DNA of 32,747 nt from Clostridia bacterium (GTDB taxonomy: Bacteria; Bacillota; Clostridia; UBA1212; UBA1255), in the NCBI GenBank assembly GCA_017620915.1, contig JAFZSK010000047.1:1-32747 (forward strand). Reading direction: 5' to 3'. The translations under genes were made by a program, and so were the position numbers. Each line of letters opens with the position of its first letter. Position 1 is the stretch's first letter. This document shows, one piece after another, positions 1 to 4,625 of the stretch. Under the pieces are notes generated by a model, which was given only the letters and a program-made list of their open reading frames with translations, made no database searches and had not been told where the DNA came from.

Positions 1-360
1 GCTATGTTCGCGGCTCCTTCTTGAGCGAGGATTGAAGGTGGCTTCGGCCTCGAAAAACATAGCAAATAGCCTTTTTTGTAAAAGTACTATGTTTTGAGTG
101 CCGGTTTTATAGGGAAGAATGAGCGAGAACGTTCAAAAAAGACATAGCAAAACTGTAAAAACGGCAATCTGCTATGTCTCAGTCAAAAATAAACCCCAAA
201 AATGAGCAAGAATCGATAGACCGAGCGGAGCGGCCGAACAGATCCGGCCGCGGAACTCACGAGCAAGGAGGTGCGGCCTCCATATCGAGCGTGTATTCCG
301 GCCGCGTCTATAATTTGCAAATCAACCGCCAAATCCGTATAATTCGACGTGAATATAACC
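1..360. repeat. Non-coding repeat region with 85-bp spaced palindromic arms
   Basis: No convincing gene lies here. The 7-mer CTATGTT/CTATGTC begins at 2, 87 and 172, an exact 85-bp spacing. Its complement ACATAGC begins at 57 and 142, also 85 bp apart. The result is two complete units (CTATGT ... ACATAGC) and the start of a third. Inside each unit a degenerate TGAGCGAG/TGAGCAAG word occurs (22, 120, 203). From about 225 the repeat gives way to a GC-rich palindrome (225-254) and then AT-rich DNA leading to the sigma factor gene. The block probably extends left of the window. What the repeat does is unknown. Confidence 0.6.
225..254. repeat. Dispersed GC-rich palindrome, copy 1
   Basis: GCGGAGCGGCC at 225-235 is followed after nine bases by CGGCCGCGGA at 245-254, so GCGGCC and GGCCGC can pair as a hairpin. 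The same two blocks, with a four-base gap, recur at 18276-18300. Two copies 18 kb apart in intergenic DNA point to a small dispersed repeat. Confidence 0.5.
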
Positions 361-2515: not shown

Positions 2516-2534
2516 TCACCCGTAATAACTTGGT

Positions 2535-2728
2535 GTTGACCGCAATTTCTTCTTTTCAAGATTGCGGTCAACGTATTAATTAAAAACAATGACCGCAATT
2601 CCACATTTTTAAAATTGCGGTCAACGCAGCGAACCAAAATAATGACCGCAATTCCATATATTCAAAATTGCGGTCAACGCACCGAGCAATAATAGTGACC
2701 GCAATTCCTTCTTTTCAGAATTGCGGTC
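2535..2728. repeat. Tandem array of four hairpins (TTGACCGCAAT type)
   Basis: Four copies of a palindrome with arms GACCGCAATT and AATTGCGGTC occur in tandem. Left arms begin at 2539, 2591, 2643 and 2697; right arms end at 2570, 2622, 2675 and 2728. The period is 52-54 bp. In copy 1 the arms are GTTGACCGCAAT and ATTGCGGTCAAC, 12 bp each and perfect (2535-2546 and 2561-2572). Loops are pyrimidine-rich on the left and vary. The AT-rich DNA between hairpins (about 16-20 bp) also varies, so selection seems to act on the arms. The array fills the gap between the putative anti-sigma gene and the ABC exporter. It could be a stacked terminator, a protein-binding array or a REP-like element. Confidence 0.85.
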
Positions 2729-2771
2729 AATGATAAACTCGCTATTCGGTTTTTAGATCCTCATTTGCCCC

Positions 2772-2800
2772 TTGCCCTTTGCAATTTCTCACTTTATAAT
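2772..2800 (+). promoter_or_regulatory. Candidate promoter for the ABC exporter
   Basis: TTGCCC at 2772-2777 and a perfect TATAAT at 2795-2800 are separated by 17 bp. A leader of about 45 bases follows, with a perfect 7-bp hairpin (GATCCGC at 2819-2825, GCGGATC at 2829-2835) just before the ribosome binding site. Confidence 0.5.
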
Positions 2801-2852: not shown

Positions 2853-4625
2853 ATGGGGCGCAAAGGTAAAACGGCAACGACGGAAACAGCGCCGCGGCCG
2901 CCGCATTTATTTAAGAGGTTCGTGGCGTATTACGGGCCGCATAGAAAGTTGTTCGCGCTGGATATGCTGGCGGCGCTGTTTATTGCCGCCATCGGGATGG
3001 TGTATCCCGTTGTCACCAACCGCATGCTCAACGACCTGATCCCGGAGCGCAAATACCGGGCGGTGGTCATTGCCGGAATAATCGTGTTGACCCTGTATCT
3101 GATCCGGATGCTGCTCCGGTATTTTGTGCAGTATTACGGCCATATGATCGGCGTAGGCATGCAGGAACAGATGCGGTCAGACTTGTTCGCGCATCTGCAG
3201 AAGCTGCCGTTCCGGTTTTTTGACGATCACGAAACGGGCAAGATCATGACCCGCCTCACCAGCGACCTGTTCGACGTGAGCGAACTGGCGCACCACGGAC
3301 CCGAGAACCTGTTCATCAGCGGCATAATGATCATCGGCTCGTTCGTGTATCTGAGTACGATCAATATAACATTGACGCTGATCATATTCGTGTGCGCGCC
3401 GATATTGGCGGTCGTTGCCGGCATCTGCCGCAAAAAGATGCGCGACGCCTTTGCCGAACGCCGCAAGACCACCGCGATGATCAACGCCTCCATCGAGAGC
3501 TCGGTCACCGGCATCCGTGTCACCAAAGCGTTCAATAACTCCGCTGCGGAGCAGGCCAAATTCGAAGAGACCAACTCGCAGTTCCGCGAAGCCTGCCGCA
3601 AATCGTACCGGGCAATGGCAGTCTTCCACTCCTCGACGTCTTTCATCACCGACGCGTTCAACGTAGTGATTCTGATCGCGGGCGGCCTGTTTCTGTACGC
3701 GGGCAAGATCAGTTTCGGCGATTATTCCACGTTTATCGTGTCCGTGAACCTGTTCATTTCGCCCATCACCACGCTGATCGGATTTATGGAACAGTATTAG
3801 AACGGCGTGACAGGGTTCGCGCGGTTTCTGGAGATCCTGGACGTGCCGCCGGAAGTTGACGATCCGGAGGCAGTTGACCTCGACACCGTGCGCGGCGAGA
3901 TCCGGTTTGATCACGTTTCGTTCCGGTATGAGGGCAATTCGGACGTGCTGAACGACGTGAGCTTCACTGTGGCGCGCGGTCAGAAGCTGGCGCTGGTGGG
4001 GCCGTCGGGCGGCGGCAAGACCACGATCTGCCACCTGATCCCGGCGTTTTATGAATTGACCGAAGGCACGATCAGTATAGACGGCATTGACATCCGGAAG
4101 CTGAAAAAGGCGTCGCTGCGGGACGCGGTAGGCATCGTGCAGCAGGACGTGTTCCTGTTTGGCGGTACGATCCGGGACAACATCCTGTACGGGCGGCCGG
4201 GGGCAACGGAGGCGGAGATGATCGAAGCGGCCAAGCGCGCCCGTATCCACGACTTCGTGACGTCGCTGGAACACGGTTACGACAGCGAGATAGGGGAGCG
4301 GGGCGTCAAATTGTCCGGCGGCCAGAAGCAGCGGATATCGATCGCCCGCGTGTTCCTCAAAAACCCCGCGATCCTGATCTTGGACGAGGCCACGTCCGCG
4401 CTGGATACCACCACCGAGATCCTGATCCAGGACGCGCTGGACGAGCTGTGTGAGGGGCGGACAACGATCGTAGTCGCTCATCGGCTCTCCACCGTGAAGA
4501 CCGCGGACGAGATCGCCGTGGTGTCGGGCGGCAACATCATCGAACGCGGCACCCACGAAGAACTGATGGAGCTGGAGAACGGGATATACAAAGAACTTTA
4601 CACGCTGCAGTTCCGAGGGAACTGA
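2853..4625 (+). pseudogene. ABC exporter (membrane + ATPase half-transporter) interrupted by one TAG
   Basis: Read through, this is one 590-residue frame, the normal length of a homodimeric-type ABC exporter. The membrane domain spans residues about 20-315. The ATPase domain carries Walker A GPSGGGKTT (about 383), signature LSGGQKQRI (about 487), Walker B ILILDEATSALD and the H-loop in VVAHRLST. A single TAG at 3798-3800 (codon 316) sits between MEQY and NG. Related exporters commonly have Gln there, so one CAG-to-TAG change would explain it. No frameshift is involved; the frame resumes at once. The downstream half could start at GTG 3807, but no Shine-Dalgarno sequence is seen. The upstream start is ATG 2853 after AAAGGGG. 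It may be a recent nonsense mutation, a read-through codon or a sequence error. Substrate is unknown. Confidence 0.8.

Follow-up and report, generated by a model that had tools for sequence, protein, structure and literature searches.

Evenly stepped palindromic arrays dispersed in a genus of uncultured Clostridia, with one array upstream of an ABC exporter gene

The analyzed stretch of DNA (hereafter the window), comprising all 32,747 nucleotides of contig JAFZSK010000047.1 of a Clostridia bacterium, carries an array of four hairpins which begins 20 bp past the stop codon of the last ORF of the upstream operon and ends approximately 120 bp ahead of an ABC exporter gene (Table 1). The genes identified beside the array are a sigma factor gene, the next ORF, the exporter gene, and a PAP2 gene. 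An earlier sequence-only reading of the locus had placed the array between a sigma/anti-sigma pair and an ABC exporter. The exporter and the ECF-like sigma factor (Pfam Sigma70 r2 and r4) were confirmed, but the ORF that follows the sigma factor gene has no Pfam match and is an anti-sigma candidate by its position only. The exporter gene (2853-4625) is broken by one in-frame TAG codon (3798-3800), which may be a genuine nonsense mutation or stem from faulty assembly; its orthologues in six congeners are open across 609-631 aa. At the start of the contig (window positions 1-180), further alternating inverted repeats (GCTATGTT/AACATAGC) were found, which apparently belong to a different repeat family.

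Table 1. Parts of the hairpin array and the adjacent promoter-like site in the window
Feature	Position	Strand	Basis
Hairpin unit 1	2535..2572	+	stem 12, loop 14; GTTGACCGCAAT..ATTGCGGTCAAC; covariance model R1, 56.5 bits
Linker 1, A-rich	2573..2587	+	sequence
Hairpin unit 2	2588..2625	+	fold; R1, 51.2 bits
Linker 2, A-rich	2626..2640	+	sequence
Hairpin unit 3	2641..2678	+	fold; R1, 50.3 bits
Linker 3, A-rich	2679..2693	+	sequence
Hairpin unit 4	2694..2731	+	fold; R1, 51.6 bits
Whole element	2531..2742	+	edges common to the array on contig C58: left GGTGTTGACC, right AATGATAAA
Promoter-like site between array and exporter gene	2772..2800	+	consensus match only, 10/12

The array of four hairpins, as originally noticed from the letters, was borne out, and its units follow one another with a step of exactly 53 bp throughout (2535-2731). 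Folded as single-stranded DNA, each hairpin reaches -11 to -13 kcal/mol on either strand (z from -5.2 to -7.7 versus dinucleotide shuffles), and for the whole array folded as RNA (z -9.5) none of the 200 shuffles was equally good. The Rfam scan of the window gave no family match at the gathering score. Several details of the first description had to be refined. The arms are indeed kept in all four copies as far as TGACCGCAAT/ATTGCGGTCA is concerned, but the inner AATT of the arm is disrupted in copy 1 (GATT). The loops and linkers, which had been said simply to differ, are not random: the former are rich in pyrimidines, and the latter are akin to the linkers of other arrays (roughly GCAYCGAGC, then A-rich). 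Linkers given as 16-20 bp and AT-rich are 15-17 nt long and A-rich. Finally, clear T-runs are absent, as stated, from the + strand, but only from that strand, as on the - strand the A-rich linkers form T-rich tails.

A DNA search with the window array as the query revealed seven additional places in the source genome (G000). A covariance model (R1) built from 24 hairpins gave 102 matches in this genome at E up to 0.1, approximately 65 of which are strong same-strand hairpins forming about 20 arrays; beyond the examined stretches, this census rests on model matches. The genomes are fragmented metagenome-assembled genomes (MAGs) and many arrays, in G000 among others, lie at contig ends; therefore, they probably broke the assembly. 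The matches of a broader, genus-wide model (R2) across the seven genomes of the genus numbered 90, 78, 77, 43, 9, 4, and 0. In other genera of the order there were none, except for five matches on one 3-kb contig (G026:C145; L107) of a genome from another family, which carries a tmRNA gene and an array resembling those of the source genus and is probably misbinned. De novo tandem-repeat scans detected no 53/54-bp hairpin arrays in stretches of the congener G002 (173 kb) or in G007, representing another genus of the family (400 kb). The relatives retrieved through plsX, a neighbouring gene, are MAGs of rumen Clostridia; the nearest of them (96%) is an "uncultured Ruminococcus" of rumen origin. 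Carriage by mobile replicons was also considered: viral contigs yielded five single, chance-like pattern matches (the two inspected are not arrays) and a plasmid search gave no match, and both phage and plasmid carriage were rejected.

The stems fall into several families, which differ between species and between arrays. Of the main stems in G000, TGACCGCAAT was found in the window, on contig C58, and in part of the array on C49; GGAGGCCGCAAT in most arrays; GGAGGCCGAAA/TTTCGGCCTACG on C111, C11, C34, and C69, and in part of the arrays on C31 and C121; and TCAGCCACAA on C31, C34, C86, and C42. The stems of G003 are TGTAGCCGCAA, and those of G001 and G004 are TACGGCCGCAA. An array on contig C14 (L200:816-1175) consists of about seven 53-bp units whose stems (GCGGTATCCC/GGGATACCGC) were missed by the family model; its early units contain a second palindrome within the loop. 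The arrays are mosaic, since arm types (designated A-D) are mixed within them: A with B on C49, B with C on C121, and D with C on C31 and C34, family C units terminating arrays of B and D. The middle unit on C49 combines the 5' arm of one family with the 3' arm of the other.

The positions of the arrays turn over between species. In the readable congeners (the G003 contig stops 226 bp upstream), the orthologous exporter is not immediately preceded by an array, and the upstream gene at this locus is also different. Uniqueness to the locus and absence from close relatives, which the sequence-only reading had named as the outcome that would speak against it, thus apply to this one site, but the family is found at dozens of further sites and in most of the species that make up the genus. 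Upstream of rplM, arrays are present in G000 and G003, with differing arms and in opposite orientation, and there are none in five other congeners; upstream of mntR, both genomes again have arrays with differing arms. The arms are thus replaced from one species to the next, either through concerted evolution or because insertion has recurred at preferred sites. A 4-kb segment (L091:369-4433 / L096:1-4074) is 98% identical between G000 and G003, which elsewhere share approximately 82-84%, reflecting either recent gene transfer or cross-binning, and it ends in one unit in G000 versus four in G003; therefore, the number of units changes in whole steps. Selection on the palindrome had initially been preferred to recent duplication. 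This does not hold as far as duplication is concerned: tandem duplication is clearly involved, as shown by this segment and by several other arrays with near-identical units.

The geometry of the unit is nearly fixed (stem of 11-12 bp, loop of 14 nt, linker of about 15). Of 150 hairpins, 144 have a 14-nt loop, and the loops are 79% C+T. Neighbouring units of G000 (37 close cases) are spaced by 53 bp in 31 cases, by 54 bp in five, and by 52 bp in one; the spacing is 53 bp in 30/30 cases in G003 and 54 bp in 18/19 in G004, and in G001 steps of 54 and 53 bp alternate, giving a higher unit of 107 bp. Among the unbiased G000 stretches, a period of 53 was found in the C14 array only, and a Fisher test of period versus hairpin content was set aside, as most loci had been picked for matches.

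What is kept in the stem is its pairing, in agreement with the initial view that the palindrome is the conserved object. In 123 distinct hairpins, 91% of the stem cells are paired, cells changed on both sides number 223 versus 72 in shuffles, and compensatory changes occur at 9 of the 12 pairs, in an alignment that was fitted to the model and hence leans towards structure. The covariation signal is lost when the partner is slid by 1-3 columns, and earlier alignments made without the model (one of them by hand) agree on it. One-sided changes comprise 22 of the G-U and 16 of the A-C type, without a clear strand preference; as the two are about equal, they lend no support to one folded strand as the acting form.

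Near-equal one-sided changes are expected of a double-stranded dyad, and the period of 53-54 bp is close to five helical turns (5 x 10.5 bp) and is retained over several arm types and species, even in the C14 array with its stems outside the family model. These features would suit a set of in-phase sites recognised by a DNA-binding protein of the cell (acting on the nucleoid, gyrase, segregation, or a domain boundary), in which the five-turn spacing is selected. We consider this explanation unlikely, given that the copy number spans 90 to 0 in congeners, that array positions turn over fast, and that no part of the unit changes faster than the arms, whose sequence such a protein would recognise.

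Arrays are situated upstream of ssrA (tmRNA), rplM, and mntR/feoA, as well as downstream of acpP and rny. Among 13 multi-unit arrays for which both neighbours were readable, eight lie between co-directional, four between divergent, and one between convergent genes, as judged from gene calls of a home-made codon model, and the orientation of arrays relative to genes is random, without strand preference. The proximity of the window array to the stop codon of the upstream operon and the T-rich tails that follow the stems on the - strand could point to a transcription terminator or an mRNA-stabilising 3' element. In the window, however, these tails and the upstream operon are on opposite strands, so that a stem with a T-run in the sense of the upstream gene, as at the 3' ends of intrinsic terminators, was not observed, and 14-nt loops are long by the standards of such signals. 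As arrays occur in divergent contexts and upstream of ssrA, rplM, and mntR, a general terminator role is excluded. It is thus very improbable that the arrays are 3' elements of this kind, which upholds the initial statement that the array is not simply a terminator.

The closest resemblance is to the BIME-2/REP arrays of enterobacteria, which are associated with RAYT transposases. The common features include a short palindrome in many intergenic copies, tandem order, mosaic composition, and species-specific stems with compensatory changes, the last being expected from RAYT-REP coevolution (PMC2817692). Moreover, RAYT-like Y1 genes are present in five of the seven genomes of the genus and in none of nine from other genera of the family, i.e., within the same limits as the arrays, and some arm types start with GGAG or GTAG. 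The arrays could accordingly be classical REP/BIME elements moved by the RAYT (Y1) transposase of the genome. However, the single Y1 gene of G000 (C76; L029:4199-4987) lies between inverted GGTCTGTCCC/GGGACAGACC and not between array hairpins; this palindrome is probably the cognate REP of the source genus. In congeners, too, different palindromes surround the Y1 genes (the GGGGACAGG type in two cases), and a rayt gene between two inverted array repeats was found neither in G000 nor in its congeners. Since the definition of RAYTs relies on inverted REPs at their flanks (PMC2817692), membership of the REP/RAYT class fails on that feature. Binding of gyrase, IHF, or Pol I is a further hallmark of REP/BIME elements. 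Furthermore, G002 encodes three Y1 genes and has no R2 match, while in G003, which has many arrays, a Y1 gene was not found (this genome is only approximately 70% complete). A constant GTAG, GTGG, or CGTC head outside the stem is also absent: the arm families are TGACC, GGAGGCC, TCAGCC, TGTAGCC, and TACGGCC, and any GTAG or GGAG lies within the stem. Other GTAG-/CGTC-tagged REP families, which comprise palindromes of 20-40 bp reiterated in tandem as dimers and clusters (PMC3733652), are similar in that organization but carry the tag; the text of that survey does not mention Firmicutes or Clostridia. Unlike BIME-2/REP, the arrays have long (14-nt) loops and a very regular 53/54-bp period, the cognate RAYT is not linked to the repeat, and the host is a genus of uncultured Clostridia. 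Overall, RAYT-driven dispersal is a rather doubtful explanation.

Another comparison may be made with the NIME of Neisseria (dRS3 and RS), which are likewise intergenic mosaic arrays of short inverted repeats with variable segments between them (PMC3898611) and, like the arrays described here, mix several repeat types. The dRS3 palindrome of 20 bp, ATTCCC(N8)GGGAAT, which alternates with RS segments of 30-160 bp without a fixed length, is absent from the sequence of all units, and the clostridial arrays combine a fixed step with a palindrome that itself differs from species to species. The arrays thus differ from both BIMEs and NIMEs in the fixed 53/54-bp step, the 14-nt pyrimidine loop, and the species-specific stems, and literature searches did not find a matching clostridial family. 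Tandem order, even spacing, and palindromes would also fit a CRISPR-like or an integron attC array. In CRISPRs, identical repeats are separated by unique spacers similar in length to the repeat, whereas the 15-nt segments between the hairpins recur across units and arrays and hence are not stored spacers. The initial statement that the array is not a typical CRISPR is thereby upheld. Conserved end boxes of the attC type were not seen by inspection across the arm types and there are no cassettes between the units, which makes both identities scarcely credible.

We propose that the window array is probably one copy of a family of genus-restricted, interspersed, BIME/NIME-like palindromic arrays that are amplified, dispersed, exchanged, and homogenised. 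The palindromic unit (12-bp stem, 14-nt loop, and linker of about 15 bp) would be amplified in tandem in whole 53/54-bp steps, presumably by replication slippage or recombination, dispersed into intergenic regions, and swapped between arrays to give mosaics, and homogenisation within each genome would provide each species with its own stem sequences. The unit may act as DNA (a double-stranded dyad, a cruciform, or a hairpin in DNA that is single-stranded during replication) rather than as a signal in transcripts, and the upkeep of the arrays may be largely neutral or selfish. The array family could not be linked to any mobility enzyme, and no clean pair of empty and filled sites with target duplication was found in the compared loci. 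A selected cellular role (nucleoid, gyrase, or replication) would give a similar pattern and explain the period better than neutral amplification. There is also some chance, albeit a modest one, that the arrays represent a new repeat class in which the geometry and not the sequence is conserved, the stems are replaced in each species (with the C14 stems as another family in the same genome), and a non-RAYT factor recognises or builds the array with a fixed ruler, so that the five-turn step is retained.

The proposed array family adds dispersed palindromes from uncultured rumen Clostridia, the stems, loops, and linkers of which can be traced across sister species. The point of interest is that the step remains close to five turns of the helix although the stems change in sequence. 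The family is a natural test case for whether sequence or spacing is the property that preserves repeats of this kind. It also supplies loci in which gain and loss of units are directly countable, and the arrays probably account for many contig breaks in the MAGs of the source genus. A separate dispersed repeat of approximately 110 bp (L089:4583-4694) was observed in more than a dozen copies in G000, and some copies are present in congeners.
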